DNA of 35,039 bases from an uncultured Lachnospiraceae bacterium (GTDB lineage Bacteria; Bacillota; Clostridia; Lachnospirales; Lachnospiraceae), in assembly GCA_947039785.1 (NCBI GenBank), contig CAMQZX010000008.1, positions 1 to 35,039 of the forward strand, read 5' to 3'. Position numbers and translations under genes: made by a program. The notes beneath the pieces were generated by a model. That model searched no databases. It was not told the DNA's origin and worked only from the letters and a program-made list of their open reading frames with translations. This document shows positions 9,533 through 34,983 of the stretch, piece by piece. Each line of letters opens with the position of its first letter. Positions within the stretch are counted from its first letter, which is position 1.

Positions 9533-9547
9533 GACCGGAGGAAAAAT

Positions 9548-11632: not shown

Positions 11633-11680
11633 TGGATTTTAATTCGGATATAAATTAAATATTTTGTGGATAATCACGAA

Positions 11681-11742
11681 AAAAGCTGTGTGAAATGACT
11701 GAAATAATATCATAAAATAGTCATTTTACACAGTTTTTTTGT
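11681..11742 (+). terminator. Rho-independent terminator after the iolG-iolI-iolE-iolH-transporter unit
   Basis: The 20-nt arms 11681-11700 and 11719-11738 pair almost completely (two mismatched or wobble positions), and the right arm ends in a T run. It lies 48 bp after the fusion gene stop and is the counterpart of the terminator at 5226. Confidence 0.8.
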
Positions 11743-11804
11743 TTGCTTTTTAACAAATAGTAAAAGTAAATGAAAATCGACAGTTTTTTTCTATAAAACG
11801 TGCA

Positions 11805-11833
11805 TTGCGTACTCGTGCACGCGATGATAAAAT
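11805..11833 (+). promoter_or_regulatory. Promoter with embedded operator upstream of the third symporter
   Basis: TTGCGT (11805-11810) and TAAAAT (11828-11833) are 17 bp apart. The operator-like palindrome TTGCGT-N8-ACGCGA occupies 11805-11824, one mismatch from perfect symmetry. It is homologous to the iolG promoter at 5351. The leader from here to the start at 12039 is about 200 bp. Confidence 0.75.
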
Positions 11834-11938
11834 ACATGTAAATTTATGTTGAGCTAAAATATTGACCTGGGAAGGAGTGGAGGGAATTTAGGCACAAGAA
11901 AACATTCAAAAGAGCTGAAATAATTTTTTTTTAGACTT

Positions 11939-11958
11939 TTGCGTGCGCGAGAACACAT
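11939..11958. promoter_or_regulatory. Second operator-like site before the third symporter
   Basis: TTGCGT (11939-11944), then GCGCGAGA and ACACAT (11953-11958); the right arm is degenerate. The core and the A/T-rich DNA before it match the site at 6593. It lies 134 bp after the first operator, a distance at which a looped repressor could contact both. Confidence 0.55.
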
Positions 11959-12038
11959 GGGGTTTTGAATAGCAGATCAGTAAATTTTAAGTGATCGTAC
12001 AAAATTTAAAAAGAGTGTGGATAAAGAAAGGACAAATT

Positions 12039-13424: not shown

Positions 13425-13582
13425 GCAAGTTCAGAAGCACATACCTGAGAGTTTATATGTAATAAGGCATTCGCGTTTTGTGCTAGTTTTACGTGGTTCT
13501 GTACTAATGGGTGAAAAGCGTTCTGTGATACAATGAATACAATTTAAAAGCGGAAAATAAAGGAAGAACAGGAGGAAATAAC

Positions 13583-17792: not shown

Positions 17793-17840
17793 AAAAACCA
17801 TAGAAAAAGGAAAAACAGATAATAAAAGGGAGTGGATAGA

Positions 17841-18851: not shown

Positions 18852-18865
18852 GGAGGAGAGAAATA

Positions 18866-20407
18866 ATGAAAAAGATGATGGCAGTTTTGCTTACTGCTGT
18901 TCTGACGGTATCCATCGTAGGATGCGGAGATTCTGGTGGTCAGAGCGGGGAAGCGGCAGAGACGAAAACAGAGGTGGAATCTCAGGCGGGTAAAGACAGT
19001 ATTGTAATAGCAACGGATGTGGATATGGATACCTTGCATCCTTCTGATTTCAGTACAACCATTGAGCACACGATTATTAAGCAGCTTTATGACACATTAA
19101 TGTATATGAATCCGGACGGAGCACATGATCCTGAGGAACGAATTGCAGAGAGTTATGAAATCAGTGAAGATGGAATGGATTATACATTTACTTTGCGTGA
19201 TGATGTTACATTCCACGATGGTTCTGCTGTGACTGCAGAAGATGTTAAATTCTCTTTAGAGCTTTATATGGATTCTGAGTATCAGGGTTCGCAGGTGACA
19301 GGACTGGAAAGCGTAGAGGCATTGGATGATACAACAGTTGTCTGCCATTTGAGCAATCCATACTCTCCATTTTTACTTGGCGTATGTCAGGTGCCCATTG
19401 CCTCCAAAGCGTATTATGAGCAGTCGGAAGATGATTTTGTAAACACACCGGTTGGCAGCGGTCCATATAAATATGTGGGAAGAGAAAAGGGAAGTAAGAT
19501 TACGCTGGAGTCTTATGAGGATTATTACAGAGGAGCAGCGACAATTAAAAATGTGACTTTTGAAGTAATTCCAGATCAGTCTACAACAGCAGTAGCCCTG
19601 AAAACAGGAGAAGTGGATTTTGCAATGATTGAATCTTCTGTTATTGCTCAGCTTACAGGAGATAATTCACTTACAGTAGAGGAAGTTGCTGCGTCCGGAT
19701 TTACATATATTTCTATGAATACGGAAAAAGAACCGTTTATCGATCCAAAGGTTCGTCAGGCAATCAATTATGCCGTAGACAGAGAGAATATCATTGCAGT
19801 TTGCTATGATAATGAAGCGGAAGTTAACTCCAACATCTGCTCCAAAGAGAGATTTGGTTATTCTGATGACCAGCCTCAGTACACGTATGATCCTGAAAAA
19901 GCCAAAGAGCTGCTTTCTGAAGCAGGAGTTACCACACCTCTTGATCTTGGAAGTATTCTGGTTGCAGAGAAATATTCCAATCTTGCCACAGTAATTCAGA
20001 GCAATCTTGCGGATGTCGGAATTAATGTCAGTATTGACGTGAAAGAATTTAATGCATATATTGACGATCTGACAAGCGGTAACTACACCATTACGGCTTT
20101 GGAAATGACGCTGGATGGCGATACACAGCAGCTTGAAATGGCGTTTATCTCTGACTATATCGGAACTGCCAACAATGCCCGCTATTCTGATCCGGAAATG
20201 GATGAATTGTTTAGTCAGGCAAGAGCAGAGACAGATAATGATGCCAGAGAAGCAATTTTTGATCAGATTTTTACAAAAGCTCAGGATGAGGCAATCTATG
20301 CGGTAATTGGTAATCCATTGACGCTTTATGCTCATAACGAGAGTCTGGAATGCAAAGAAATTCCATTTGAAGGAATTTATTCAATCTATGACTTTAGCTG
20401 GAAATAA
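18866..20407 (+). CDS. ABC transporter solute-binding lipoprotein, SBP_bac_5 family
   Basis: A 513-residue family-5 extracellular solute-binding protein (Dpp/Opp type). A lipoprotein signal with lipobox IVGC puts the lipidated cysteine at residue 20. The mature part has typical family segments such as YTFTLRDDVTFHDGSAVTAEDVKFSL (residues about 108-133, partly quoted), VGSGPYKY and FIDPKVRQAINYAVDR. Family members bind di- or oligopeptides, but some bind nickel, opines or oligosaccharides, so the ligand is open. AGGAGGAGA precedes the ATG. Permease and ATPase genes follow in order, so this is a complete importer. Confidence 0.9.
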   Translation: MKKMMAVLLTAVLTVSIVGCGDSGGQSGEAAETKTEVESQAGKDSIVIATDVDMDTLHPSDFSTTIEHTIIKQLYDTLMYMNPDGAHDPEERIAESYEISEDGMDYTFTLRDDVTFHDGSAVTAEDVKFSLELYMDSEYQGSQVTGLESVEALDDTTVVCHLSNPYSPFLLGVCQVPIASKAYYEQSEDDFVNTPVGSGPYKYVGREKGSKITLESYEDYYRGAATIKNVTFEVIPDQSTTAVALKTGEVDFAMIESSVIAQLTGDNSLTVEEVAASGFTYISMNTEKEPFIDPKVRQAINYAVDRENIIAVCYDNEAEVNSNICSKERFGYSDDQPQYTYDPEKAKELLSEAGVTTPLDLGSILVAEKYSNLATVIQSNLADVGINVSIDVKEFNAYIDDLTSGNYTITALEMTLDGDTQQLEMAFISDYIGTANNARYSDPEMDELFSQARAETDNDAREAIFDQIFTKAQDEAIYAVIGNPLTLYAHNESLECKEIPFEGIYSIYDFSWK

Positions 20408-20422
20408 AATAAGTAAATAATC

Positions 20423-20459
20423 ACTGCCAGACTGCGTTTTCGAAATACAGCCTGGCAGT
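20423..20459. other. Stem-loop between binding-protein and permease genes
   Basis: ACTGCCAG (20423-20430) pairs perfectly with CTGGCAGT (20452-20459), with three more pairs inside after a mismatch. No T run follows. A stem-loop in this position often stabilises the upstream message so that the binding protein is made in excess over the membrane parts (known for similar operons; inferred here). Confidence 0.5.
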
Positions 20460-20488
20460 ATAATTATCTCAGTAAAGGAGTGAGCTTT

Positions 20489-21439
20489 TTGTATAAATAT
20501 GTGGCAAAGCGTTTGTTATATATGATTCCGGTTCTGCTTGGAGTTGCTTTTCTGGTATTTGCAATATTGTCACTGACACCGGGTGATCCCGGGTCTATTA
20601 TTCTCGGTATTACTGCAAAGCCGGAAGATATTGCGGCATTAAATGCGGAGTTTGGTTATGACAAACCCTTTTTGATTCGGTTTTTTAATTACATAGGGGA
20701 TGTTGTGCTTCATTTTGATCTTGGGACTTCTTATCAAAGCAGACAGCCGGTGATTAATGACATCCTGGCACGTTTTCCCAACACATTTTTACTGACCGTA
20801 TTGTCCATGTCTGCAGCTTCTGTCATAGGCATTTCTCTGGGAATCATTTCTGCTGTTAAGCAGTATACAGCCCTTGATCAGACTCTGGTGGTTGTGGCCC
20901 TGATCTTTGCATCTATTCCCGGATTTTGGCTGGGATTGATGTTGATGCTGTTTTTCTCCATGAAGCTTGGCGTTTTACCTTCTTATGGAGCAGATAGCCT
21001 GAGGCATTTCGTTTTGCCCACAATAACGGTTTGTATGACTTCGGCGGCAGGACTTCTGCGTCTGACCAGATCTGCCATGCTGGAGACCATCCGGCAGGAG
21101 TATATACGGACTGCAAAGGCGAAAGGGGCATCACAGAAACGTATCATCTGGAAACATGCACTTCGCAATGCTATGCTTCCGGTGGTGACAACCCTTGGCA
21201 CCAGCTTTGGTGCTTCTCTGGGCGGAGCGATTATTGCAGAGACTGTGTTTGCCATGCCGGGTATGGGAACACTGATCACCACGGCGATCCGGCAGAAAGA
21301 TATTCCCGTGGTAATGGGATCTACATTGTTCCTTGCCGTGTTATTCAGTTTGATTATTCTGATTGTAGATGTGATTTATGCATTTATTGATCCGCGTATT
21401 AAAGCAAAATATGAGAATGGGGGTAGGAGCCGTGAATAG
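20489..21439 (+). CDS. ABC transporter permease, DppB type
   Basis: A 316-residue inner-membrane protein with about six transmembrane segments and the permease EAA loop (EYIRTAKAKGASQKRIIWKH, about residues 208-227) that contacts the ATPase. The N terminus (YKYVAKRLLYMIPVLLG) and LTPGDP are typical of DppB/OppB. I chose TTG 20489 because AAAGGAG (20474-20480) lies 8 bp upstream; GTG 20480 would use the last base of that site. It overlaps the next permease gene by 8 bp. Confidence 0.88.
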   Translation: MYKYVAKRLLYMIPVLLGVAFLVFAILSLTPGDPGSIILGITAKPEDIAALNAEFGYDKPFLIRFFNYIGDVVLHFDLGTSYQSRQPVINDILARFPNTFLLTVLSMSAASVIGISLGIISAVKQYTALDQTLVVVALIFASIPGFWLGLMLMLFFSMKLGVLPSYGADSLRHFVLPTITVCMTSAAGLLRLTRSAMLETIRQEYIRTAKAKGASQKRIIWKHALRNAMLPVVTTLGTSFGASLGGAIIAETVFAMPGMGTLITTAIRQKDIPVVMGSTLFLAVLFSLIILIVDVIYAFIDPRIKAKYENGGRSRE

Positions 21440-22298
21440 ACAAAAATCAAGAACACGGGAACAATTTCGAGAATTCTGGCGCCGCTACCGCAAAAATAAA
21501 TCGGCAGTTGTCGGGTTGATTATCCTTGTTTTTCTCATTGGGATGGCGCTTTTTGCAGATCTGATCATCCCCTATTCCAAATGTGTGGAGCAAGTAGGCG
21601 CAGAGCGTCTGCAGCTTCCCTCAGCAGCCCACTTCTTTGGGACGGATGAGTTTGGACGTGACCTGTTTGCACGTGTGGTCCATGGTTCCAGATATTCTTT
21701 GTTTATCGGTGTGGCAACAAGCCTGATGGCGCTGGTTGCAGGAGCGATTCTTGGAGCCAGTGCCGGATATTTTGGAGGAATGGTGGATAATATTATTTGC
21801 CGAATTATTGATGTGTTTATGTGTGTGCCTCCGATTCTGCTGTCACTGGCTGTGGTAGCCGCTATTGGAACCAGTATGCAGAATCTGATCATCGCCATTA
21901 CCATATCCTGTATTCCGGGAAATGTGCGCTTGATTCGTTCTGTGGTGCTTACAGTTGCGGAGCAGGATTATGTGGAGGTGGCCAGGTCTTACGGAGCCTC
22001 TAATGCCCGTATTATCTTTCGGTATGTACTGCCCAACGCCATGGGACCTATCATTGTAAATACCACAATGGCAATTTCCGATATGATTTTGTCTGCGGCA
22101 GGACTTAGCTTTATTGGAATGGGAATTCAGCCTCCCTCGCCAGAGTGGGGAGCACTGCTCTCAGCAGCTCAGAGCTATATTTTTACTTCACCGTATTTGT
22201 TATTCTTTCCGGGTATTTTTATTGTGTTAAGCTCTTTATCTTTTAATCTGGTAGGTGATGGTTTGACAGATGCTCTTGATCCCAAGTTAAAGAATTAA
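21432..22298 (+). CDS. ABC transporter permease, DppC type
   Basis: A 288-residue DppC/OppC-type permease with an N-terminal basic stretch (EFWRRYRKNKSAVVG), about six membrane segments, the HFFGTDEFGRDLFARV segment and the EAA loop (DYVEVARSYGASNARIIFRY). I chose GTG 21432, which overlaps the stop of the previous gene (GTGAATAG) and is preceded by GGGGGTAGGAG; ATG 21411 or 21417 are possible alternatives with poorer ribosome sites. It pairs with the DppB-type protein to form the membrane channel. Confidence 0.85.
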   Translation: MNRQKSRTREQFREFWRRYRKNKSAVVGLIILVFLIGMALFADLIIPYSKCVEQVGAERLQLPSAAHFFGTDEFGRDLFARVVHGSRYSLFIGVATSLMALVAGAILGASAGYFGGMVDNIICRIIDVFMCVPPILLSLAVVAAIGTSMQNLIIAITISCIPGNVRLIRSVVLTVAEQDYVEVARSYGASNARIIFRYVLPNAMGPIIVNTTMAISDMILSAAGLSFIGMGIQPPSPEWGALLSAAQSYIFTSPYLLFFPGIFIVLSSLSFNLVGDGLTDALDPKLKN

Positions 22299-22318
22299 AG
22301 GAAAGGCGGTAGAGATCA

Positions 22319-23302
22319 ATGAACAAAGTGTTAGAAGTGAAAAACCTTTCTATTCAATATAAGACAGACCTGGAGACTGTTTATGCAGTAAATAGTATCA
22401 GTTTTTCCCTGAATGCAGGAGAGACGCTGGGGCTTGTGGGAGAGACAGGAGCAGGGAAAACCACCACAGCCCTTGGTATTATGGGGCTGCTTCCGGAAAG
22501 GACAGGAAAGGTGCCTTCTGGAGAGATTCTATTTGAAGAGAAAGATTTGCTTACCCTGAAAGAGCAGGATATGATGAAAATCAGGGGAGGTAAAATTTCC
22601 ATGATTTTTCAGGACCCTATGACGGCGCTGAATCCGGTACTGCCAGTGGGAAAACAGATTGGAGAGGCATTGCTTCTTCACAATACAGAGAACCTGTCTA
22701 ACGACGAGATTGAGAAAAAGGTAGAAGAGACACTGGAACTTGTTGGTATTCCCAAAGCAAGAAAGGTAGAATACCCCTATCAGTTTTCCGGAGGAATGCG
22801 CCAGAGAGTTGTCATTGCCATTGCACTGATCTGCAATCCGAATTTATTGATTGCGGATGAGCCCACCACTGCTTTGGACGTAACCATTCAGGCTCAGATC
22901 CTTTCTATGATCTGCAATCTGCAGAGAATGTATAAAACGTCGGTAATTATGATTACCCATGACTTGGGCGTTGTGGCAGAAACCTGTGATAAGGTGGCAA
23001 TCATGTATGCGGGAGAAATCGTGGAGTATGGAACTCTTGGTGATATTTTTACAGGAGAGATTCATCATCCATACACAATCGGTCTTTTCAATTCTCTTCC
23101 CAGTCTTACTAAGGACAGTCATCGTCTCCATCCCATCGAGGGTCTGATGCCGGATCCTACTGTAAAACCAGAAGGTTGCTGGTTTGCCCCCAGATGTAAA
23201 TATTGTACGGAGCAGTGCAAAAAGCAGAAGCCGCCAGTGGTGGAAGAGAATGGACATCAGGTTCGATGTCACTTTCCGGTGCATCAGAAAGGAGTGGAGT
23301 AG
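22319..23302 (+). CDS. ABC transporter ATPase, DppD type
   Basis: A 327-residue ATP-binding subunit. Walker A is GETGAGKTT (41-49), the ABC signature FSGGM (156-160) and Walker B LLIADE (176-181). The C-terminal oligopeptide-transporter extension carries several cysteines ([14 protein letters not shown]), as in this family. AAAGGAAAGGCGG precedes ATG 22319. It works with the DppF-type subunit encoded 2 bp downstream to power import. Confidence 0.92.
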
Positions 23303-23304
23303 TT

Positions 23305-24264
23305 ATGTCTGAGAAGCTTATTGAAGTGAAACACCTTAAGAAATATTTTAATACTCCGGCCGGTATCCTTCATGCGGTGGATGATGTGAACTTTGAAATT
23401 CCTCAGGGAAAAACGCTGGGAGTAGTGGGAGAATCCGGTTGCGGTAAGTCCACCCTCGGACGCACATTGCTTCAATTGGACGCGCCTACAGAAGGCGAGA
23501 TCCTCTTTAAAGGGACGAATCTGGTTACCGTTGGCAGGAAGGAAATGAGATGCATCAGGCCAAAAATTCAGATGGTATTTCAGGATCCATATGCCAGTTT
23601 AAATGGCCGTATGAATGTAAGACAGCTGATTGCAGAGCCGTTGATTGTCAATAAAGTCTGCAAAAACAAAAGGGAGCTGGAAGATCGTGTCAGTGGTATG
23701 ATGGAGACAGTGGGACTGGCAGAGCGTCTTTCCATGGCATATCCCCACGAGCTGGATGGGGGCAGGCGACAGAGAATCGGTATTGCCAGAGCATTGATTC
23801 TGGAGCCGGAGTTTGTCATCTGCGATGAGCCGGTATCTGCCCTTGACGTTTCCATTCAGGCACAGATTCTAAATCTGCTGATGGATCTACAGGAGGAAAT
23901 GAAGCTGACGTATATGTTTATTACCCATGATTTGTCGGTGGTGCGCCATATTTCAGATGAGATTATGGTTATGTATCTGGGAAAATGTGTGGAGAAGGCG
24001 GATGCAAAAGAGATTTTCAAAAATCCGGTGCATCCATATACGAAGGCACTTCTGGCTGCCATTCCCATTCCCAGCATTGAATCCTGCCACAAAGAGCGGA
24101 AGCTGCTGAGGGGCGAGGTGGTGAGTCCGGTGAATCCTGCTTCGGGATGCCGTTTTGCTGCCAGATGTCCTCGTGCTGCGGAGTCGTGCCGGCAGGGGGA
24201 TATTCCCTTTACAGAGATTTCTCCAGGTCATTATTGTGCGTGCAGCAGAATCGGAGAAATATAA
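23305..24264 (+). CDS. ABC transporter ATPase, DppF type, with altered signature motif
   Basis: A 319-residue ATP-binding subunit with Walker A GESGCGKST (42-50), Walker B FVICDE (170-175) and a cysteine-containing C-terminal oligopeptide domain. The ABC signature reads LDGGR (150-154) where the family has LSGGQ; in a heterodimeric ATPase this would weaken one of the two ATP sites, while the DppD partner keeps FSGGM. AAGGAG (23289-23294) lies 10 bp before ATG 23305. A longer frame open from 23203 overlaps the previous gene and is not needed. Confidence 0.9.
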   Translation: MSEKLIEVKHLKKYFNTPAGILHAVDDVNFEIPQGKTLGVVGESGCGKSTLGRTLLQLDAPTEGEILFKGTNLVTVGRKEMRCIRPKIQMVFQDPYASLNGRMNVRQLIAEPLIVNKVCKNKRELEDRVSGMMETVGLAERLSMAYPHELDGGRRQRIGIARALILEPEFVICDEPVSALDVSIQAQILNLLMDLQEEMKLTYMFITHDLSVVRHISDEIMVMYLGKCVEKADAKEIFKNPVHPYTKALLAAIPIPSIESCHKERKLLRGEVVSPVNPASGCRFAARCPRAAESCRQGDIPFTEISPGHYCACSRIGEI

Positions 24265-24299
24265 AATGTTACACATTAAAAAATCAGGGAGTTGTGAGA

Positions 24300-26261
24300 A
24301 TGAATCGATCAGAATATAAATGGCCTTATGCAAATGAATCAGGAATGGAAGAAATGGTACAAAGCGATGTGTTGGTTCTCGGCGGCGGTTTATCAGGCTG
24401 TTTTGCTGCCATAGCGGCTGCCAGAAAAGGGCTTTCTGTTGCAATTGTGGAAAAGGGGGCCATTGAAAAAAGCGGTTCCGCAGGCACAGGCTTTGATCAT
24501 TGGGAATCTGCCTGTACCAATCCGTGTTCCGGAGTAACGGCCAAAGAAATCGCAGAGGCTTATGTGAGAGAACAGGACTGGTACAGCAATGGTATTGCTC
24601 ACTATATTGAATGCCGGGAGGGGTATGACCGGCTGCTGGATTTGGAGAGCTTCGGCGGAAAGGTAAGGGATACGGAAGACGAGTTCGTGGGAGCGGAATT
24701 TCGAGATGAGAATACAAAATTGATGTTCGCCTATGACTATAAAAATAAATTTACCATTCGTGTCTGGGGTTCTACGTTTAAACCTGCTTTGTACAGGGAA
24801 TTAAAAAAGCTGGGCGTAAAGATTTATGAGAGAACAGAGGCAACGGGACTTTTGGTTTCCTCCGATTCTGGCGGAACAGTTCGGGGAGCCGGAGCTATGG
24901 GAATGAACGTGAGAACCGGCAAATTTTATGTGTTTCGTGCAAAATCCACGGTTCTTGCCATGTCCCGGCCTGCCAGAGTCTGGCTGTTTGATCCGGATTT
25001 GACTGGGCTTTGTGAGTTTCGCCCTATGCAGAGTATTGGAAGCGGTCACGCCATGGGATGGAGAGCAGGTCTGGAATTTACCATGATGGAAAAGACGGTG
25101 CGTGCGGAGTTCTCAGCGGCGGGGAGAAGCTTTCCGCCGTATGGAGCCGGAAACAACCACAATACCTGGTATGCGGCAACCATGGTAGACGCGCGAGGTG
25201 TGGAGATTCCTTATGTGGATCGTGATGGAAGAGAGTTAAAGACTGTGTCGGAGCGTTACTATCCTGCGCCGGGGCAGAAGTTTTTCTTAAAAGGCGGCGT
25301 CATTGACAATCCCAAATACGAGTACCGGGGACCGGAAACTCTGGAATTTGATGAGTTGATTAAGCGTGGCTATCAGTTGCCCTTCTATGCGGATTTAAGC
25401 CGGATGCCGGAGAGTGAGCGTAAGGTGATTTGGGGAATGATGATTGGAGAGGAAGCCAAAACTAAGATTCCCATTTATCAGAACTATACGGATCGGGGCT
25501 TTGATCCCAGCAAGCATATGCTTCAGAGTTATGGAACCGGATGGCAATCTGCCAATTTTCTGGAACAGGAAAGACAGTTTTTCGGAGCACCCGGGGGTGT
25601 GATGCATGACTGGGACCTGAAGACAAATGTCGATGGAATCTATGCGTGTGGAGATCAGCTTTATGCCTCAGATTGCGCCGGATTTGCCTGTGCCACCGGC
25701 TATTATGCCGGAAGAAAGGCGTCCGATTACGCCAAAACAGTGGGTTTGGCAGAGATAAATTCTCAGGATGTACAGGCGGAAAAAGAGAGGCTGTATGCAC
25801 CTCTTTACGTCAGATCGGAAGAGGGGATTACCTGGAAGGAGCTAAACAGTGCGATTTCCAAAGCCATGCAGAATTATTGCGGAGGAGTTAAATGCGATTC
25901 CCTCCTTCTGGAAGGATTGGATTTGCTGAAAAGCTTCGAAAAGGATATTGTGCCGTCTCTTTATGCAGAGAATCCTCATGACTTGATGAGAACTCATGAA
26001 GTGATGGATATCTTAACGGTGGCGCAGATTGTTCTTCATGCTTCTCTGGCCAGAAAGTCAAGTTCCCAGCCTCTTTGCTTTATGAGAAGTGATTATCCCG
26101 AAATTGACCCTGCCTGTGACAGAAAGCATATCGTTCTTCGCCAGGAGGACGGAAAGCCCGTGACAAGGGAAGTTCCTCTTGATTTCTTTGGAGATCTGGA
26201 GGAGGAGTATGAAAAGCGGAATCAGAGATATATCAGAGAGGAGGCAGTGCATCATGAGTAA
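24300..26261 (+). CDS. FAD-dependent reductase flavoprotein (AprA/fumarate-reductase-like)
   Basis: A 653-residue flavoprotein of the succinate dehydrogenase/fumarate reductase/AprA superfamily. The FAD-binding start is LVLGGGLSGCFAAIAA (25-40), with acidic E51 after the second strand. GHAMGWRAGLEF and the C-terminal GIYACGDQ segment are flavin-binding landmarks, and AGNNHNTWYAATMVD resembles AprA-type subunits. There is no Tat or Sec signal, so it is cytoplasmic. AGGGAG (24286-24291) is 8 bp before ATG 24300. Its stop overlaps the ferredoxin start (ATGAGTAA), so the two are probably subunits of one enzyme. No sulfate-reduction genes are near, so adenylylsulfate reduction is unlikely. The substrate may be something carried by the ABC importer (inference). 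Confidence 0.8.
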   Translation: MNRSEYKWPYANESGMEEMVQSDVLVLGGGLSGCFAAIAAARKGLSVAIVEKGAIEKSGSAGTGFDHWESACTNPCSGVTAKEIAEAYVREQDWYSNGIAHYIECREGYDRLLDLESFGGKVRDTEDEFVGAEFRDENTKLMFAYDYKNKFTIRVWGSTFKPALYRELKKLGVKIYERTEATGLLVSSDSGGTVRGAGAMGMNVRTGKFYVFRAKSTVLAMSRPARVWLFDPDLTGLCEFRPMQSIGSGHAMGWRAGLEFTMMEKTVRAEFSAAGRSFPPYGAGNNHNTWYAATMVDARGVEIPYVDRDGRELKTVSERYYPAPGQKFFLKGGVIDNPKYEYRGPETLEFDELIKRGYQLPFYADLSRMPESERKVIWGMMIGEEAKTKIPIYQNYTDRGFDPSKHMLQSYGTGWQSANFLEQERQFFGAPGGVMHDWDLKTNVDGIYACGDQLYASDCAGFACATGYYAGRKASDYAKTVGLAEINSQDVQAEKERLYAPLYVRSEEGITWKELNSAISKAMQNYCGGVKCDSLLLEGLDLLKSFEKDIVPSLYAENPHDLMRTHEVMDILTVAQIVLHASLARKSSSQPLCFMRSDYPEIDPACDRKHIVLRQEDGKPVTREVPLDFFGDLEEEYEKRNQRYIREEAVHHE

Positions 26262-26918: not shown

Positions 26919-27953
26919 ATGAAATATATTGAATTTGATGAAGCAAGACCATTAGACCTGGTACTTCTTGGAAGAGTTGCCATTGATTTTAATCCGGCAT
27001 ACAACGATCAGGTAAAAGAAGAGTTTAAACCATTAAAGAAGGTTCATATGTTTGAGAAGTTTGTAGGTGGTTCACCGGCGAACATCGCAGTAGGTGTTAC
27101 AAGACACGGAATGAAAGCAGGATTCTTTGCAAAGGTTTCCGATGACCAGTTTGGAGAGTTTGTAGTAGATTACTTCAATGAGCAGGGAATCGACACCACC
27201 CGCATTTCCAGATGTACCAACGGTGAGAAGCTGGGATTGACCTTCACCGAGATGTTATCTCCAAAGGAAAGCAGTATCCTGATGTATCGTAACTGCATCG
27301 CAGATTTACAGCTTCATGTAGATGATATTGACGAGGAATACATCAAAAGTGCAAAGGCAATTTTAATTTCCGGTACAGCACTGGCAGAAAGTCCATCCAG
27401 AGAGGCAGCCATCAAAGCTGTGATGCTGGCTAAGAAGAATGACACAAGAATCATTTTCGATATTGATTACCGTGAATATAACTGGAAAAACAGCGATGAG
27501 ATTTCTATTTACTACTCTATCGTTGCCAAGGAAGCCGACATCATCATGGGATCCAGAGAAGAGTTTGACCTGACCGAGAAATTGATTCAGCCAGGTATGA
27601 CCGATGAGCAAAGCGCAGCTTACTGGCAGGGATATAACGCGAAGATCGTAGTGATCAAGCATGGCATGAAGGGCTCTACCGCTTACACCTGTGACGGACA
27701 GAATTTCAGCATCAAACCATTCCCCGTTGAGGCGAGAAAAGGCTTCGGCGGCGGCGACGGATATGGTTCCGGTTTCCTGTATGGACTGTATCAGGGTTGG
27801 GAAGTCATCGACTGTCTGGAATTTGGCTCCGCAGAGGCTTCCATGATGGTTCGCAGCAACAACTGTTCCGATTCCCTTCCGGGACCAGATGCAGTACACG
27901 CATTTATCAAAGAAGAAAAAGAGAGATTCGGCGAGATGATCGCAAGGGTATAA
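26919..27953 (+). CDS. iolC: 5-Dehydro-2-deoxygluconokinase (IolC)
   Basis: A 344-residue PfkB/ribokinase-family kinase that phosphorylates 2-deoxy-5-keto-D-gluconate with ATP. The sugar-binding start LGRVAIDFNP, the first PfkB signature GGSPANIAVGVTRHG (residues about 50-64) and the C-terminal catalytic motif GFGGGDGYGSGF (275-286, base D280) are present; the anion hole reads GGGD instead of the usual GAGD. GCGGAGG precedes the ATG. It is the first gene of the lower-pathway unit, under the CACGC repeats. Confidence 0.92.
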   Translation: MKYIEFDEARPLDLVLLGRVAIDFNPAYNDQVKEEFKPLKKVHMFEKFVGGSPANIAVGVTRHGMKAGFFAKVSDDQFGEFVVDYFNEQGIDTTRISRCTNGEKLGLTFTEMLSPKESSILMYRNCIADLQLHVDDIDEEYIKSAKAILISGTALAESPSREAAIKAVMLAKKNDTRIIFDIDYREYNWKNSDEISIYYSIVAKEADIIMGSREEFDLTEKLIQPGMTDEQSAAYWQGYNAKIVVIKHGMKGSTAYTCDGQNFSIKPFPVEARKGFGGGDGYGSGFLYGLYQGWEVIDCLEFGSAEASMMVRSNNCSDSLPGPDAVHAFIKEEKERFGEMIARV

Positions 27954-27987: not shown

Positions 27988-29919
27988 ATGGCAAAGACAA
28001 TCAGAATGACAGTGGCACAGGCCATTGTGAAGTTTTTAGATAATCAGTACGTATCCATGGACGGCGTGGAGACAAAGTTTGTGGAAGGCTTCTTCACCAT
28101 CTTCGGACACGGCATTGCAGTGGGACTTGGAGAGGCATTAGATACCAATCCCGGACAGCTTCGTGTACTTCAGGGAAGAAACGAGCAGGGTATGTGCCAT
28201 ACAGCAATTGCATTTGCAAAACAGAGTAACCGCAGAAAAATCATTCCCTGTGCTTCTTCTGTAGGACCTGGAGCAGCCAATATGGTAACAGCCTGCGCCA
28301 CAGCCACGGTAAACAATATTCCGCTTCTTGTGTTCCCGGCAGATACCTTTGCATCCAGACAGCCAGATCCGGTACTGCAGCAGCTTGAGCAGAGCAGCAG
28401 CCTGGCAGTGACCACCAACGATGCATTTAAACCAGTGTGCAAATACTGGGATCGAATTACAAGGCCGGAGATGATCATGACAGCACTGATTAACGCCATG
28501 AGAGTTCTCACGGATCCGGCAGAGACAGGTGCCTGCTGTATCGGTCTTTGCCAGGATGTAGAAGGTGAGTCTTATGACTATCCGGAATACTTCTTCAAGA
28601 AACGTGTACACAGAATCACAAGACCTGTGGCAGTGGAAGAAGAACTGAAAGACGTTGCAGAGATTATCGCAGGTGCTAAGAAGCCGCTGGTAATTGTGGG
28701 CGGTGGTGTTCGTTACTCCGAAGCTGGCGAGACGGTTGAGAAGTTTTGCGAAGAGTTCAAGATTCCATTCGGAGAGAGCCAGGCAGGAAAGAGTGCTTGT
28801 CAGTCCAGTAACCCATATTGTCTGGGTGGTATCGGTGTAACAGGAACTTACGCTTCCAATATTATTGCAAAGGATGCCGACGTTGTAATTTCCATCGGTT
28901 CCAGAATGTCTGATTTTACCACAAGCTCCAAGCGTCTGTTCAAGAACGAGAATGTACAGTTTGTGACCATCAACAATTGCAGATTCCATGCCTATAAGAT
29001 GGACGCGGTGAAGGCTGTAGGTGATGCCAAAGTTACAGTTGAAGCACTGGCTGAGAAGCTGAGAGAGAAAAATTACGTATCTGCTTATACAAATGAAATT
29101 GAAGAAGCTAAGAAAGTATGGGATCAGGAAATGGTAAGACTTGCCGGAATCGAGTATACAGGCGAAGATTTTGAGCCGATCATCAAGGCAAGAGACCCAA
29201 GAACTATTCCTGAGTTCGTAAAAATGACCAATGGAAAGATTACCCAGACGGCAGCGTTGGCAGCAATTCGCAGAGTCATTGATGAGGATGCAACCATCAT
29301 CACAGCAGGCGGCTCTCTTCCAAGCTGTATGCAGAGAATGTGGACCACAGACAAACGGGGTGGATATCATGCAGAGTACGGATATTCCTGTATGGGATAT
29401 GAAGTTGCCGCAACTTTGGGAGTGAAGTTTGCAGAGCCGGACAACGAAGTATACTGCGTTGTCGGTGATTCCAGCTTCCAGATGCTCCACAGCGAGATTA
29501 TGACTATTATGCAGGAACGCAAAAAAGTAAACATTCTTGTATTTGACAACTGTGGATTCGGATGCATTAACAACCTGGAGATGAACCATGGTATCGGAAG
29601 CATTGCCACAGAGTTCCGTTACACAGACGGAAAGAAACCATGCGGCGATCTGATTCCTGTAGATTATGCTAAGATCGGCGAGGGATATGGTTTGAAGACT
29701 TATACTTGCAAAACAATCGCAGAGCTGGAAGCAGCATTACAGGATGCAAAACAGCAGGAGGTTGCTTGTCTCTTTGATTTGAAGGTTATTCCGAAGACTA
29801 TGACAGATGGATATGAGTCCTGGTGGAATGTGGGTATTGCCACAACATCTGATAAGGAATCCGTAAGACAGGCTTGCGAAGGCGTCATGGAAGGACGTAT
29901 GGAAGCTAGAGATTATTAG
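27988..29919 (+). CDS. iolD: 3D-trihydroxycyclohexane-1,2-dione acylhydrolase (IolD)
   Basis: A 643-residue thiamine-diphosphate enzyme that hydrolyses the inositol ring intermediate to 5-deoxy-D-glucuronate. The catalytic glutamate is E66 in GRNEQGM, and the ThDP/Mg motif starts at GDSSFQM (493-499), followed by LVFDN about 27 residues later. The length is close to Bacillus IolD (637). AAGGAG precedes ATG 27988, 34 bp after iolC. A 483-codon open frame on the opposite strand is a shadow of this gene's codon use. Confidence 0.95.
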   Translation: MAKTIRMTVAQAIVKFLDNQYVSMDGVETKFVEGFFTIFGHGIAVGLGEALDTNPGQLRVLQGRNEQGMCHTAIAFAKQSNRRKIIPCASSVGPGAANMVTACATATVNNIPLLVFPADTFASRQPDPVLQQLEQSSSLAVTTNDAFKPVCKYWDRITRPEMIMTALINAMRVLTDPAETGACCIGLCQDVEGESYDYPEYFFKKRVHRITRPVAVEEELKDVAEIIAGAKKPLVIVGGGVRYSEAGETVEKFCEEFKIPFGESQAGKSACQSSNPYCLGGIGVTGTYASNIIAKDADVVISIGSRMSDFTTSSKRLFKNENVQFVTINNCRFHAYKMDAVKAVGDAKVTVEALAEKLREKNYVSAYTNEIEEAKKVWDQEMVRLAGIEYTGEDFEPIIKARDPRTIPEFVKMTNGKITQTAALAAIRRVIDEDATIITAGGSLPSCMQRMWTTDKRGGYHAEYGYSCMGYEVAATLGVKFAEPDNEVYCVVGDSSFQMLHSEIMTIMQERKKVNILVFDNCGFGCINNLEMNHGIGSIATEFRYTDGKKPCGDLIPVDYAKIGEGYGLKTYTCKTIAELEAALQDAKQQEVACLFDLKVIPKTMTDGYESWWNVGIATTSDKESVRQACEGVMEGRMEARDY

Positions 29920-29996
29920 AATTAAATTGCTGTTTTGATAAAAGGGCAATTTTCAGATAGATGTGAGAAATTAATGAGAAAGCAGAGGGATGGATG

Positions 29997-30782
29997 ATGA
30001 GTAAAGTATTTGGTTATCCTGAATTTAATTCAGAAGGCGAAATGATACTGACTACTTATGATAATGAATATAAAGCAATGATGATGGATATCCGTGTATA
30101 TCGGATGAAAGCCGGCGAGAAGAGAACCTTCTGCCGCACAGGAGAAGAGACGGCAGTCCTTCTCCTGTCAGGAAAAATTACTTATGCATGGGATGACAGA
30201 CAGGAGACAGTCAGCAGAAAAGACGTGTTCACCGAGGGACCCTGGTGTGTACATACAAGTACCGGAGTGGAGATTGCTGTGACGGCAGAGGCAGATTCAG
30301 AAATCCTGGTACAGTGTACTCAGAATGAGAGAGTGTTCCCAAGCCGTCTCTATGCACCAGAGGACGCTCCATGGGGTTACTCCTGTGTAGGGAAATTTGG
30401 AAATGTGGCAAAACGCCGTGTAAATACTATTTTTGATCACGACATCTCACCGGAGTCCAACATGGTACTGGGTGAAGTGTTAAACGACAGAGGAAACTGG
30501 TCTGGCTATCTTCCTCACAGACATCCCCAGCCAGAGACCTATCTTTTCAAATTTGATCGTCCGGAAGGGTTCGGAGCAAGCTTTGTGGGAGATCAGGTAT
30601 TTAAGAGTGTGGACAACAGCTTTTCCGCCATCCCCGGAGGAGAGCTTCATCCCCAGGCGGTTGCACCGGGATTCCAGATGTATACCTGCTGGATGATCCG
30701 TCATCTGGAAGGAAATCCATGGTTACAAACGGACCGCTGCGAAGATGAACAGTATGTATGGCTTCACGACGCAGAGTTTTAA
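29997..30782 (+). CDS. iolB: 5-Deoxy-glucuronate isomerase (IolB)
   Basis: A 261-residue double-cupin protein of the KduI/IolB family that isomerises 5-deoxy-D-glucuronate to 2-deoxy-5-keto-D-gluconate. The segments TGEETAVLLLSGK and the metal-binding-like LPHRHPQPETYLFKFDRPEGFG (residues about 167-188, partly quoted) are typical. ATG 29997 is preferred over the adjacent ATG 29994 because GAGGGA (29985-29990) then lies 6 bp upstream. A weak 7-bp hairpin (29924-29952) lies in the gap from iolD. Confidence 0.92.
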   Translation: MSKVFGYPEFNSEGEMILTTYDNEYKAMMMDIRVYRMKAGEKRTFCRTGEETAVLLLSGKITYAWDDRQETVSRKDVFTEGPWCVHTSTGVEIAVTAEADSEILVQCTQNERVFPSRLYAPEDAPWGYSCVGKFGNVAKRRVNTIFDHDISPESNMVLGEVLNDRGNWSGYLPHRHPQPETYLFKFDRPEGFGASFVGDQVFKSVDNSFSAIPGGELHPQAVAPGFQMYTCWMIRHLEGNPWLQTDRCEDEQYVWLHDAEF

Positions 30783-30918: not shown

Positions 30919-32070
30919 ATGGCAAGAGAATTTATTGTACCGGGACAGATTATTACCGGTTCAGGCGCATTGGATATGGCAGAAAATACAATTGGACAGT
31001 TGGGAAAGAAAGCTCTGATTGTAACAGACAAAGTAATGATTCAGTTGGGAAATTGTGCAAAGGTAGAAAATGCCCTGAAAAATCAGGGAGTGGACTATGT
31101 GATTTATTCTGAAATCGTTGGAGAGCCTACAGACGTTATGATTGAGAACGGGTTGAACATTTATAAAGAGGAAGGCTGCGACTTCCTGGTGGCTTTAGGT
31201 GGAGGAAGCCCCATTGACTCCATGAAAGCCATCGGCTCTCTGGTAGTAAACGGCGGAAATATTTCTGACTACATGGGTAAAGTGATTGACGTTGAGATGC
31301 CTCCAATGGTGGCAATCCCTACAACGGCAGGAACTGGTTCTGAGGCAACACAGTTTACGATCATCACAGATACCAAAAAAGATATTAAGATGCTTCTGAA
31401 AGGCAAAGTGCTGATGCCATCTCTGGCAGTCATTGATCCTCAGTTTACCATGACGGCACCGCCTAAGATTACAGCAGCAACGGGATTGGATGCTCTCTGC
31501 CATGCAGTGGAAGCTTATACTTCCAACAAGGCTCAGACTTTATCCGACACCTTCGCCTTATCAGCAGTAAAACGTATTTTCAAATATCTTCCTCAGGCAT
31601 TCCATGATGGACAGAACGAGACTGCAAGAGTGGAGATGTCTGTGGCAGCTTTAGAAGCAGGAATTGCATTTAACAACGCTTCTGTAACATTGATTCACGG
31701 AATGAGCCGTCCAATCGGTGCTCTGTTCCATGTGGCTCACGGATTGTCAAACGCTATGCTGATGAAAGAATGCTTAAGCTTTGCTCTGGAAGGTGCTTAT
31801 GATCGCTTTGCAGAGCTGGGAAGAAGCATTGGTGTGGCGGCAGCTTCTGATTCTGATCAGGAAGCCAGTGAGAAATTCCTGGCAGCGGTAGTTGCACTGA
31901 CGGAGGAGCTTGAAACACCGACTCTGGAAGAGTTTGGAATTGAAAAAGAAGCATTCTTCAACGTGATTGAGAAAATGGCCTACGATGCAATGGACAGCGG
32001 AAGTCCTCAGAATACCCGCAGAGCCATTACTCAGGCAGACGTGGAGCAGATGTATAGAAATCTGTTTTAA
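30919..32070 (+). CDS. Iron-containing alcohol dehydrogenase (group III), possible malonate-semialdehyde reductase
   Basis: A 383-residue NAD(P)-dependent dehydrogenase of the iron-type family. GGGSPID (94-100) binds the cofactor and D191, H195, H260 and H274 form the metal site, all in the expected places. Family members reduce short aldehydes such as lactaldehyde or succinate semialdehyde. In this operon the expected aldehyde is malonate semialdehyde, and no IolA is present, so reduction to 3-hydroxypropionate is a reasonable inference. AAGGAG precedes ATG 30919. The 136-bp gap after iolB shows no clear promoter or terminator. Confidence 0.88.
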   Translation: MAREFIVPGQIITGSGALDMAENTIGQLGKKALIVTDKVMIQLGNCAKVENALKNQGVDYVIYSEIVGEPTDVMIENGLNIYKEEGCDFLVALGGGSPIDSMKAIGSLVVNGGNISDYMGKVIDVEMPPMVAIPTTAGTGSEATQFTIITDTKKDIKMLLKGKVLMPSLAVIDPQFTMTAPPKITAATGLDALCHAVEAYTSNKAQTLSDTFALSAVKRIFKYLPQAFHDGQNETARVEMSVAALEAGIAFNNASVTLIHGMSRPIGALFHVAHGLSNAMLMKECLSFALEGAYDRFAELGRSIGVAAASDSDQEASEKFLAAVVALTEELETPTLEEFGIEKEAFFNVIEKMAYDAMDSGSPQNTRRAITQADVEQMYRNLF

Positions 32071-32088: not shown

Positions 32089-32170
32089 AAGCAGATTGGA
32101 AATATCTGCTTGAATGAATCATCAACAGGTGAGGCGGACATTTCGTGAAAGGTACAGATGTCCGCTTCAC
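32089..32170. other. Two tandem stem-loops before the OFA-type transporter
   Basis: AAGCAGAT (32089-32096) pairs with ATCTGCTT (32104-32111). A second, stronger stem joins GTGAGGCGGACAT (32129-32141) and ATGTCCGCTTCAC (32158-32170) with one G-U pair. Neither is followed by a T run. They may moderate read-through or protect message ends. Confidence 0.55.
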
Positions 32171-32188
32171 AGAATAGAGAGTGAATTT

Positions 32189-33487
32189 ATGGAATTGACG
32201 AAAACACAAAAAAGGCAAAGAAATTTAATGATGCTGTTCGGTGCCTTCGCGATTTTCTTTACAGGATATCCTCATGTGTGGTCCATCTATCAGCCATATG
32301 TGATGGAACAGGCGGGCTGGACGCAAGGACAGGCATCCATGTGTTTTTACCTGGCACTTAGCACCTTTGTATTCGGAAATATAGTGGGAGGACGCATTCA
32401 GGATAAGAAAAATCCCCGGTTGGTAGTATTGATCGGCGGTGGAATCTTTACAGTCGGCATTTTGGCATCGGCATTTCTCATTGTGCCATCTCCTCTTCCC
32501 ATCTATCTTACTTATGGAGTGATGCAGGGCTTTGGCCAGGGAATGATTTACACCACGATTATTTCCACGGCCCAGAAGTGGTTTCCGGGGCGTACAGGAT
32601 TTGCCTCCGGCGTGGTGGTGACAGCCAACGGACTGTGCGGATTCTTTCTTGCCCCCATCAGCCGTACCCTTCTGGAGACAGGTGGACCGAAACTGACCTT
32701 TCTGGTAATCGGAGCAGTGATTGCGCTTTCCTGGATACTTTGTACCTTATTCTTCTATGTACCGGACAGTGAGTGGAGACGGCAGGCGGAGGCTTTGGTA
32801 AATCAGACTTCTGGTGTTGTCAGAACAGTGGAGCAGAAGCAGTACACATCTTCTGAGATGATGAGAACCAAAAGCTTTTACTTCCTTCTGGCAACCATGC
32901 TGTTTGGACTGATTTCTTATTTCATGGTATCACCGGTTTCTCAAACACATCAGATTGAGATGGGAATCCCTTCTGCCATTGCGGTGAGTGCTGTAATGAT
33001 TGGCTCCATCGTAAATGCAGGAACAAGACTGGTACTTCCCACTCTGGCTGACAAAGTGGGAAGAGTGGTTTGTATCCAGGGTGTTTTGGTGGTATCCATT
33101 GTGGCTATGGCAGTGCTCAGTTTGTCACATTCTTATGCGGTTACCGCGGCCATTGTAATCATGTATGGATGTTACGGCGGAATTATGGGAAGCTTTCCCT
33201 CCTTCACCAGTTCTATTTTTGGAATTGAGCATTCGGGAGAAAATTATGGCTTTGTTATGTTTGGTATTGTTCTCGCAACCTTCGGAGCACCGGCGATTAC
33301 CGGATTGATTACAGGCAGCGGCTATGGAATGGAGACAGTATTTGCCATAGGTACTGGCTTTGCAGTGATTGCCCTGATCTGTATGCAGTTACTCAAAAGA
33401 GAGTTAAGCGGAGGCAGTATCGGAAGAAAGGAGAAAAGAAATGGCATTAGTAACCATGAAATCGCTGTTGGATCAGGCGAAGAATGA
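32189..33487 (+). CDS. MFS transporter, OFA (oxalate:formate antiporter-like) family
   Basis: A 432-residue membrane protein with about 12 hydrophobic segments. The N-terminal GYPHVWSIYQPYVMEQAGWTQ, GGRIQDKKNPR loop and YGVMQGFGQGMIYTT are typical of the OFA branch of MFS carriers, which move small carboxylates. Here it may export an acidic end product such as 3-hydroxypropionate, or import a related acid (inference). ATG 32189 has only a weak ribosome site (GAGAG); an in-frame ATG at 32114 would add a basic non-family segment read through the hairpins. Its last 47 bp overlap the aldolase gene in another frame. Confidence 0.82.
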   Translation: MELTKTQKRQRNLMMLFGAFAIFFTGYPHVWSIYQPYVMEQAGWTQGQASMCFYLALSTFVFGNIVGGRIQDKKNPRLVVLIGGGIFTVGILASAFLIVPSPLPIYLTYGVMQGFGQGMIYTTIISTAQKWFPGRTGFASGVVVTANGLCGFFLAPISRTLLETGGPKLTFLVIGAVIALSWILCTLFFYVPDSEWRRQAEALVNQTSGVVRTVEQKQYTSSEMMRTKSFYFLLATMLFGLISYFMVSPVSQTHQIEMGIPSAIAVSAVMIGSIVNAGTRLVLPTLADKVGRVVCIQGVLVVSIVAMAVLSLSHSYAVTAAIVIMYGCYGGIMGSFPSFTSSIFGIEHSGENYGFVMFGIVLATFGAPAITGLITGSGYGMETVFAIGTGFAVIALICMQLLKRELSGGSIGRKEKRNGISNHEIAVGSGEE

Positions 33488-34298
33488 GAATCGTGGAGTG
33501 GGAGCCTTCAGTGTGGGAAATATGGAGATGGTTAAAGGCGCTCTGCAGGCAGCAGAGGAGCTGAATACACCAATCATCCTGCAAATCGCAGAGGTGCGCC
33601 TGAAACATTCTCCTCTTGCTATGATGGGACCTATGATGGTTCAGGCAGCGAAAGAAGCGAAGGTAGATGTGGCAGTTCATCTTGATCATGGACTTACCAT
33701 GGAAGTGGTGGAACAGGCTCTGGAGCTTGGCTTTACCTCTGTTATGTTTGACAGCTCCACCTATCCTTTTGAGGAAAATATGATGCGCACCAAGCAGGTG
33801 GTTCAGGCTGCAAAGCAGTATGGAGCCACTGTGGAGGCGGAGCTTGGACTGGTGGGCGGAAGTGAAGACGGAAGCTGCGACCACGGAATCCGCTGCACCA
33901 ATCCCGAGGACGCCATGGTATTTTGTCAGCAGACAGGAATCGATGCTCTGGCAGTAGCCATTGGAAATGCCCATGGTAATTATCCTGTGGCACCAACTCT
34001 GGCATTTGATGTGCTGGAAGAAATTCAGCAGAAGACAAACGTCCCTCTGGTCCTTCACGGAGGAAGCGGAATTACAGACGCGGATTTCAGAAAAGCAATT
34101 TCTCTGGGAATTGTGAAGGTAAATATTGCCACAGCCAGCTTCAACAAGCTGACCCAGAGAGCAGAAGAATACTTAAAATCAGACGGTGCGCATAACTATT
34201 TTGCACTGAATGAAGCCATGGTGCTTGGAACCTATGAGAATGTGAAGCATCACATCGAAGTATTCAACTGCAAAAAGCCATTGGAAGAACTGGCTTAA
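33441..34298 (+). CDS. iolJ: Class II aldolase, IolJ-like (2-deoxy-5-keto-gluconate 6-phosphate aldolase)
   Basis: A 285-residue class II fructose-bisphosphate-aldolase-family protein. The zinc ligands are H83 in HLDHG (80-84), H178 in GNAHG and H206 in LHGGSG, with the catalytic D82 beside the first. In an inositol operon the reaction is cleavage of 2-deoxy-5-keto-D-gluconate 6-phosphate to dihydroxyacetone phosphate and malonate semialdehyde; a general glycolytic or tagatose aldolase cannot be excluded by sequence alone. AAAGGAG lies about 8 bp before ATG 33441. It overlaps the end of the transporter gene by 47 bp. Confidence 0.87.
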   Translation: MALVTMKSLLDQAKNENRGVGAFSVGNMEMVKGALQAAEELNTPIILQIAEVRLKHSPLAMMGPMMVQAAKEAKVDVAVHLDHGLTMEVVEQALELGFTSVMFDSSTYPFEENMMRTKQVVQAAKQYGATVEAELGLVGGSEDGSCDHGIRCTNPEDAMVFCQQTGIDALAVAIGNAHGNYPVAPTLAFDVLEEIQQKTNVPLVLHGGSGITDADFRKAISLGIVKVNIATASFNKLTQRAEEYLKSDGAHNYFALNEAMVLGTYENVKHHIEVFNCKKPLEELA

Positions 34299-34470: not shown

Positions 34471-34983
34471 TCATAATACCAGAGATGGAGCAGAGTATAC
34501 GCGTGCGCCCAACTCATTGTCCAGCATGTACAGGCTCTTTGGATCGTCTCCGAACAGCTCGAATTTCTTAACCAGGTTGTCTGCGTTGGTTTCTTCCTCA
34601 CCCTGCTCTTTTACAAACCAGTCTAAGAACTGCATGGTACGGAAGTCTTTTACGGTGTATGCGGCATCGTAGATGGTGTGAATCAGGCTTGTTACGTACC
34701 GCTCATGCTTTAAGCCCTCTGCCAGAACAGCTTTGACACTCTCCAGAGTTACGCCTGGCTTTTCAATGGCGTCTAAGACCACAGTTTCTCCGTTGTTCTG
34801 TAAATACTGGATGAACAGCATGGCGTGATCTCTCTCTTCCTGTGCCTGAATCTTATACCAGTTGCCGAATCCGTCCAGTCCCTGATCGTAATAGTAGTTG
34901 GAAAAGTCCAGATATAAATATGCGGAATAGAATTCCTTATTTACCTGCTGGTTTAATAACTCTACAACTTTCTTGTCTAACAT
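34471..34983 (-). CDS. ftnA: Ferritin (non-heme iron storage)
   Basis: A 170-residue bacterial ferritin subunit. The ferroxidase residues are all at standard bacterial positions: E17, E50, H53, E94, Q127 and E130. The protein forms a 24-subunit shell that oxidises and stores iron in the cytoplasm. AAGGAG (complement of about 34992-34997) lies about 8 bp before the ATG whose first base is 34983. It is convergent with the inositol operon and is probably a housekeeping neighbour. The promoter is not clear in the remaining 56 bp of the window. Confidence 0.95.
   Translation of the reverse strand: MLDKKVVELLNQQVNKEFYSAYLYLDFSNYYYDQGLDGFGNWYKIQAQEERDHAMLFIQYLQNNGETVVLDAIEKPGVTLESVKAVLAEGLKHERYVTSLIHTIYDAAYTVKDFRTMQFLDWFVKEQGEEETNADNLVKKFELFGDDPKSLYMLDNELGARVYSAPSLVL

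Follow-up and report, generated by a model that had tools for sequence, protein, structure and literature searches.

The inositol genes of an uncultured Lachnospiraceae bacterium raised the question of why an iron-type alcohol dehydrogenase (ADH, here this open reading frame or its clade) is encoded among them. The original prediction, made from the window (the 35,039-nucleotide stretch of DNA analysed here), held that the enzyme acts in place of IolA, reduces malonate semialdehyde (MSA) to 3-hydroxypropionate (3HP) with re-oxidation of NADH, and could thereby feed propionate formation as reported for Anaerostipes. The ADH frame (30919-32070, + strand) starts with ATG, has a ribosome-binding site ahead of it and encodes an intact protein of 383 amino acids. 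It lies in a row of genes, all on the + strand, in the order iolC, iolD, iolB, ADH, MFS carrier and aldolase, with intergenic gaps of 34, 74, 136 and 43 bases and an overlap of 47 bases between carrier and aldolase. IolC (26919-27953), a 5-dehydro-2-deoxygluconokinase, scored 368.8 bits with TIGR04382 (cut-off 300), and IolD (27988-29919), a trihydroxycyclohexane-1,2-dione acylhydrolase, scored 918 bits with TIGR04377 (cut-off 715). The 5-deoxy-glucuronate isomerase IolB (29994-30782) is divergent and passed the Pfam KduI/IolB family only (162.8 bits), reaching just 89 bits with the NCBIfam IolB model TIGR04378, under the cut-off of 205. The class II aldolase (33441-34298; PRK06806, 442.7 bits, cut-off 396) is assigned the IolJ role, yielding DHAP and MSA, from its context. 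The predicted placement of ADH between iolB and the aldolase thus stands, with an MFS gene that had gone unmentioned (32114-33487, + strand, start maybe 32189) between ADH and aldolase. Its product resembles transporters of the lactate/oxalate-formate type, with scores below cut-off for both the L-lactate MFS model NF049980 (254.8 bits, cut-off 320) and TIGR00890 (196 bits, cut-off 374.85).

Further inositol genes occupy the upstream part of the window, again on the + strand. These encode the inositol 2-dehydrogenase IolG (1385-2398; TIGR04380, 472 bits, cut-off 355), the inosose dehydratase IolE (7599-8495; TIGR04379, 413 bits, cut-off 290), a second IolE-like protein (323-1324) that as a query retrieves the IolE genes of relatives' iol clusters, and an IolG homologue (5553-6557) similar to bifunctional inositol 2-dehydrogenase/D-chiro-inositol 1-dehydrogenase, at 468 bits with NF052679 (below its cut-off of 540). 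Between upstream iolG/iolE and iolCDB, positions 17832-26261 hold genes for an M42 peptidase and a fumarate-reductase-like flavoprotein, together with a solute-binding protein, two permeases and two ATPases that by eye look like a dipeptide transporter. At its end the iol row faces a convergent ferritin gene (34471-34983, - strand). A scan for regulatory sites gave 16 promoter-like sites compared with 14.2 in shuffled sequence and 3 terminator-like sites compared with 6.7, and no use was made of it.

The protein itself is a group III iron-type ADH, as judged from its Pfam domains, fold and metal ligands. That the gene encodes an enzyme of this type, as predicted, was borne out by an intact frame and by scores over the cut-offs for both Fe-ADH Pfam domains (PF00465, 167 bits; the C-terminal domain PF25137, 150 bits). 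None of 17 NCBIfam equivalog families, including lactaldehyde reductase, ErcA, 4-hydroxybutyrate dehydrogenase and SarD, was passed, the top score being 330 bits for ErcA (cut-off 550). The structure model (pLDDT 94.3) matched best to 3owo (Z 58.9, 378 residues, 1.3 Å), and it shares its fold with FucO, DhaT, Zymomonas ADH2 and Bacillus methanol dehydrogenase (Z 56-59, rmsd 1.3-1.7 Å, 32-38% identity). Sulfoacetaldehyde is the sulfonate analogue of MSA. The sulfoacetaldehyde reductase of Bifidobacterium kashiwanohense (6jko) has the same fold (Z 46.3, 2.8 Å) but is only 28% identical, and the SarD model gave ADH a score of 206 against a cut-off of 700.

The active site combines conserved and distinctive residues. 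ADH has D191, H195, H260 and H274 where FucO has its metal ligands D196, H200, H263 and H277 (listed in PMC10324492), and like FucO-type group III enzymes it carries the NAD-type Asp, its Asp37 aligning with FucO Asp39. Asp at this position goes with NAD and Gly with NADP according to PMC5125639, and DhaT D41G is tabulated among NAD-to-NADP changes in PMC5817062. Unlike those enzymes, ADH has a different gene context and has Arg264 where, by alignment, FucO has His267; the motif reads HGMSRPIGALFHVAHG in ADH and HGMAHPLGAFYNTPHG in FucO. FucO His267 hydrogen-bonds the catalytic water (figure legend in PMC10324492), and YugJ His271, which from its spacing we judge to occupy the same place, is described as binding a nitrate ion beside the nicotinamide (PMC8836905). 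The arginine was present in all 34 ADH copies from a sample of the bacterium's own family, which were selected on E-value alone as far as known, and in none of 11 paralogues in the window genome. The four ligands and R264 were kept in 114/114 copies (110 distinct; the 34 sample copies plus the best 80 of at least 589 relatives from named genomes), although for the 80 named-genome loci part of the R264 conservation was built into the selection, HGMSRPIG being one of the two patterns used in the scan. We suggest that Arg264 may bind the MSA carboxylate.

We then asked whether IolA is missing. In the window genome, a 4.10-Mb draft of 375 contigs that is 96% complete, no protein exceeded the TIGR01722 (MMSDH) cut-off of 448.5 bits, the best scoring 283 and the next 193 bits. 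Two matches were full-length and two partial, and both full-length proteins scored better with other ALDH families, lactaldehyde dehydrogenase coming first at 416 and 365 bits, still below cut-off. This genome-wide check agrees with the predicted lack of an IolA-type dehydrogenase, which, because the genome is a draft, is likely rather than certain. To see the relation more widely we surveyed the same family with 299 genomes, roughly one for each genus. ADH (E ≤ 1e-90) was found in 34, IolD over its cut-off in 39 and MMSDH over its cut-off in 28. Fifteen genomes had both ADH and IolD (Fisher p 1.3e-6), and in 12 of these 15 the two genes lie less than 10 kb apart, a proximity that exceeds chance.

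Replacement of IolA by ADH is true of the window genome, but it is no general rule, as 7/15 genomes with ADH and iolD have both enzymes. Among the 39 iolD-bearing genomes, 7 have ADH and IolA, 8 ADH only, 15 IolA only and 9 neither. Strict mutual exclusion was unsupported, IolA being present in 7/15 genomes with ADH versus 15/24 without it (Fisher p 0.51); when only iol-linked ADH genes were counted, the figures were 4/12 versus 18/27 (p 0.08). In two genomes (G028, G090) IolA is on the ADH contig, 5 and 9 kb away, and one inositol locus from a named genome (L134) also holds both. ADH therefore need not carry the whole flux where IolA occurs too, as in these seven genomes and L134. Five of the nine genomes with neither enzyme have a CoA-transferase 60-64% identical to that of a close relative's locus, L120 (G010, G058, G080, G081, G201); two have a remote one (G211, G238; 40-44%) and two have none. 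A CoA-transferase of 45-57% identity is also present in 4/15 IolA-only genomes (best copies: G038 46%, G084 57%, G104 47%, G214 53%). We read these distributions as pointing to three partly overlapping fates of MSA among inositol users rather than to a one-for-one replacement.

The genomic surroundings of ADH were compared at fixed score thresholds within a 10-kb radius. Regions around the other 33 family-sample ADH genes were fetched, and loci from named genomes were gathered by a scan with a 12-sequence alignment (A1), the best 80 of at least 589 relatives being taken, which is not a random sample; four had the same ADH sequence as another locus, leaving 76 distinct and, pooled with the family sample, 110 distinct loci (114 in total). 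In the family sample, 12 of the 34 loci (window included) were inositol loci, 12 had two or more pyrimidine markers, two had IolC alone, one a CoA-transferase module, one a single pyrimidine marker and six none, so that 28/34 had an MSA- or 3HP-linked neighbour. The 76 distinct named loci (from the best 80 of at least 589) comprised 27 inositol loci, 11 with two or more pyrimidine markers, 10 with one, eight with IolC alone, six with an MSA dehydrogenase, three with a CoA-transferase module and 11 with none. In the pooled set, with the same restriction on its named part, ADH stood near MSA- or 3HP-linked genes in 93/110 distinct loci: inositol genes in 39, reductive pyrimidine genes in 23 (strong) plus 11 (weak), IolC alone in 10, an MSA dehydrogenase in six and a CoA-transferase/propionate module in four, with three more such modules inside inositol clusters. 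The remaining 17/110 had no marker at the thresholds used; some of the contigs are short, and two marker-less loci (L119, L132) nonetheless hold IolE and aldolase genes.

The association with inositol genes extends beyond close relatives. The five ADHs most similar to that of the window among the best 80 of at least 589 (L119-L123, 84-88% identity) come from records labelled Lachnospiraceae or Lachnoclostridium, and ADH genes within iol clusters were also found in Selenomonadaceae, a Veillonellaceae record and Clostridium (L191, L188, L159, L161). An aldolase gene lies near ADH in many relatives, immediately behind it in L159, L161 and L188. The MFS gene is present in 3/114 ADH loci, including the iol loci L121 and L122. 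In six loci free of iol and pyd markers (L141, L142, L143, L148, L164, L170), an MSA dehydrogenase is encoded no more than 2.7 kb from ADH, that of L141 scoring 532 bits with TIGR01722, over the cut-off of 448.5; these six may represent a 3HP to acetyl-CoA module.

MSA is a product common to inositol and pyrimidine breakdown, and the route from uracil through beta-alanine and MSA to 3HP is known. A 2019 paper on PydD and PydE reportedly placed a malonic semialdehyde reductase beside the MSA-forming enzyme in reductive pyrimidine degradation. The ADH clade occurs in clusters with at least two pyrimidine markers in 23/110 distinct loci, usually in the order class III aminotransferase, ADH, transporter genes (identified by eye), dihydropyrimidinase, PreA-type dihydropyrimidine dehydrogenase and carbamoylase-type amidase; in L062 the pyrimidine genes scored 478 bits with TIGR02033 (cut-off 393), 574 with PreA (335) and 394 with TIGR01879 (204). 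The 11 weak loci each have a single marker gene, for an aminotransferase or a carbamoylase, which could be there by chance. In a figure legend of PMC7332683, PydD is the beta-alanine aminotransferase and PydE the malonic semialdehyde reductase. Compared by role only, ADH relatives in Clostridia occupy the same place next to the MSA-forming enzyme. Unlike in the inositol operon, the feeding enzyme is beta-alanine aminotransferase and the ADHs have Gly37, the NADPH type.

The coenzyme residue divides the two contexts almost completely. Asp37 was found in 39/39 distinct inositol copies, 10/10 IolC-only copies and 4/4 CoA-transferase copies, and Gly37 in 23/23 strong and 9/11 weak pyrimidine copies; the 23 marker-less copies, six of them from MSA-dehydrogenase loci, had 17 Asp, 5 Gly and 1 Ala. 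A tree built by a quick method placed all 34 pyrimidine copies, strong and weak, with six unmarked ones in a single group of 40 (SH-aLRT 88), and the Asp/Gly split is therefore close to one historical switch. Repeated evolution was rejected, with three changes needed on the tree for residue 37 and one for the pooled iol/pyd label, in which IolC-only loci were counted with iol, weak pyd with pyd, and other rows left out; unpooled, strong pyd took eight changes and iol 14. A single change under pooled labels amounts to two associations, not many. The root of the tree is unsure because the outgroup branches are very long. The pattern fits Asp37 marking an NADH sink in fermentation and Gly37 an NADPH enzyme in nitrogen salvage.

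The gene order and content, the conserved contexts, the metal ligands and the coenzyme-type residue are direct observations, from which we infer the substrate, the direction of the reaction, excretion and the carrier. With fair confidence, we conclude that ADH acts as an NADH-dependent MSA reductase (a 3HP dehydrogenase) in the inositol operon and that 3HP is most likely excreted. IolG, IolE, IolD, IolB and IolC with the aldolase would convert inositol to DHAP and MSA; ADH, standing where IolA would oxidise MSA, would reduce it to 3HP with NADH; and 3HP would be excreted, perhaps through the product of the intervening MFS gene, which we propose to be a carrier of 3HP or another monocarboxylate. 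By book-keeping, inositol to 3HP plus lactate would be exactly redox-balanced with one net ATP, assuming a lactate dehydrogenase: IolG and GAPDH would each give one NADH, and ADH and lactate dehydrogenase would each use one. The predicted reduction of MSA to 3HP with re-oxidation of NADH is thus supported by the gene contexts, in which ADH is encoded alongside MSA-forming enzymes of inositol and pyrimidine breakdown, and by Asp37.

Could the 3HP instead pass through 3HP-CoA, acrylyl-CoA and propionyl-CoA to propionate? In relatives the genes for this are at hand. A CoA-transferase and an enoyl-CoA hydratase are encoded near ADH in seven loci (L055, L120, L145, L151, L154, L159, L184), joined in four (L151, L154, L159, L184) by an acyl-CoA dehydrogenase, that of L159 being nearest to the acrylyl-CoA reductase AcrC (492 bits, cut-off 640). 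L120, whose ADH is 86% identical to that of the window, combines inositol genes with the CoA-transferase/hydratase pair on a single contig. Among the 15 sample genomes with ADH and iolD, three have a CoA-transferase 77-80% identical to that of L120 (G082, G126, G243) and three more a remote one (G028, G090, G250; 40-48%). An inositol to 3HP to propionate route via ADH may therefore operate in some relatives. The neighbours of ADH in L154 (Candidatus Anaerostipes avistercoris) include genes for Etf, a CoA-transferase, an enoyl-CoA hydratase and an acyl-CoA dehydrogenase, a set suggestive of a free 3HP intermediate there; a second, divergent Fe-ADH (8837-9976, best to PsrA at 229 bits, below the cut-off of 424) stands immediately ahead of the family ADH at this locus. 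In Anaerostipes butyraticus (L174) ADH is near an aminotransferase gene, and the CoA-transferase query found no match at E ≤ 1e-60. The window organism is a different case. PF00378, PF02771 and PF01144 (enoyl-CoA hydratase, acyl-CoA dehydrogenase and family I CoA-transferase) had no match in its 96%-complete draft but matched 13, 10 and 6 of 14 control genomes, respectively, and single-protein queries for propionate enzymes likewise retrieved nothing from it, the CoA-transferase query recovering its own source genome at 100%. The predicted feeding of propionate was rejected on this absence of the families searched and is very improbable for this organism, in which 3HP is probably the end product since none of those families matched in the draft.

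ADH could also be a general redox valve of the ethanol, propanediol or lactaldehyde type, co-regulated with inositol use by happenstance. Its closest solved structures are indeed methanol, ethanol, propanediol and lactaldehyde enzymes, and it passed no NCBIfam model, but tracking MSA genes through unrelated pathways, as this clade does, is not what one would expect of a general valve, the FucO histidine is replaced by R264, and two AdhE-length frames (893 and 878 amino acids) are present elsewhere in the genome; we consider this reading unlikely. We give similarly little credence to a reading in which MSA is reduced mainly by an enzyme of the 2-hydroxy-3-oxopropionate reductase family encoded elsewhere while ADH does something else. 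The genome does encode five PF14833 proteins, two of them over family cut-offs (L199, L200), and the Mitsuokella enzyme MJ_1291 bears that family's name (PMC7618129). None of the five is on the window contig, however; L199 adjoins a DapA-like aldolase and L200 an SDR, and Fe-ADHs of the ADH family stand in Selenomonadales iol clusters (L191, L193, L195, L196, the ADH of L196 being identical to that of L193). From the last point it follows that the Mitsuokella reductase assignment deserves a check. An NADH-dependent MSA reductase remains our preferred reading.

Two published systems bear on this assignment, and the original prediction's citation mixes the reports on them. The scheme given for Anaerostipes in PMC8355322 runs from 3-oxopropionate to 3-oxopropionyl-CoA by the CoA-transferase OxcT and on through EcdH and AcaD/Etf, and the main text of that paper never mentions 3-hydroxypropionate; appeal to Anaerostipes was therefore inexact. 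It is Mitsuokella jalaludinii for which 3HP formation from inositol or phytate is described. MJ_1291, a 2-hydroxy-3-oxopropionate reductase, is named as the enzyme responsible, and the locus number of a 3HP permease, MJ_0911, directly follows those of the iol operon (MJ_0906-0910); the same source has A. rhamnosivorans converting 3HP to propionate (PMC7618129). 3HP as an end product is thus already known from Mitsuokella and is here predicted likewise. The gene content of the window fits the Mitsuokella type (iol upper pathway, candidate MSA reductase, putative carrier) and the reductase family differs: MJ_1291 is not numbered with its operon, whereas here an Fe-ADH lies inside it. With Anaerostipes the window shares the iolCDB order and a predicted reductive use of MSA, but the families of CoA-transferase, enoyl-CoA hydratase and acyl-CoA dehydrogenase searched for had no match in the draft genome. 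The upper steps are those of the Bacillus subtilis-type iol pathway, from which the draft differs in having no IolA over cut-off. A literature search, mostly excluding subscription papers, found no Fe-ADH described as an MSA reductase in an iol cluster, nor any description of this ADH family in an iol operon, of its place in pyrimidine clusters or of its coenzyme switch.

ADH thus has an ordinary fold and an informative place; it is most likely the MSA reductase of the inositol operon, with 3HP its probable product. On a wider reading we are evenly divided: many anaerobic Clostridia and Negativicutes may share one Fe-ADH clade as their MSA/3HP oxidoreductase, which would serve inositol and pyrimidine modules as well as MSA-dehydrogenase and acrylyl-CoA/propionate ones; residue 37 (Asp or Gly) would adapt it to NADH or NADPH, and Arg264 would bind the carboxylate. 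If this is true, free 3HP rather than 3-oxopropionyl-CoA would be the normal intermediate from inositol to propionate in ADH-bearing Anaerostipes and relatives, and the Mitsuokella reductase assignment would have to be re-examined; the published assignment of the MSA to 3HP step, as reported in PMC7618129, rests on annotation together with transcript data. Both 3HP and propionate, when formed from inositol or phytate in the diet, are gut metabolites for which antimicrobial and host-health effects are claimed (PMC7618129, PMC8355322). As a marker, the family could help to sort inositol degraders in genomes and metagenomes by likely product, that is acetate (IolA), 3HP (ADH) or propionate (CoA-transferase module), and ADH would offer an NADH-type candidate enzyme for producing 3HP.

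Some loci of the clade have unusual arrangements. In L058, L138, L063 and L165, ADH, aldolase and IolC occur without iolB or iolD. A GntP-type permease gene adjoins the three in L058 and a gene for a 437-amino-acid protein takes the same place in L138, while PTS EIIC/EIIA genes and a PRD regulator lie beside them in L063, with the same order in L165. These arrangements suggest that a gluconate-like acid is taken up directly and fed into the lower inositol pathway. The selenomonad iol cluster L191 has genes for a Fer4-domain aldo/keto reductase (11183-12295) and a transaldolase-family protein (13151-14206) between ADH, aldolase and IolC.
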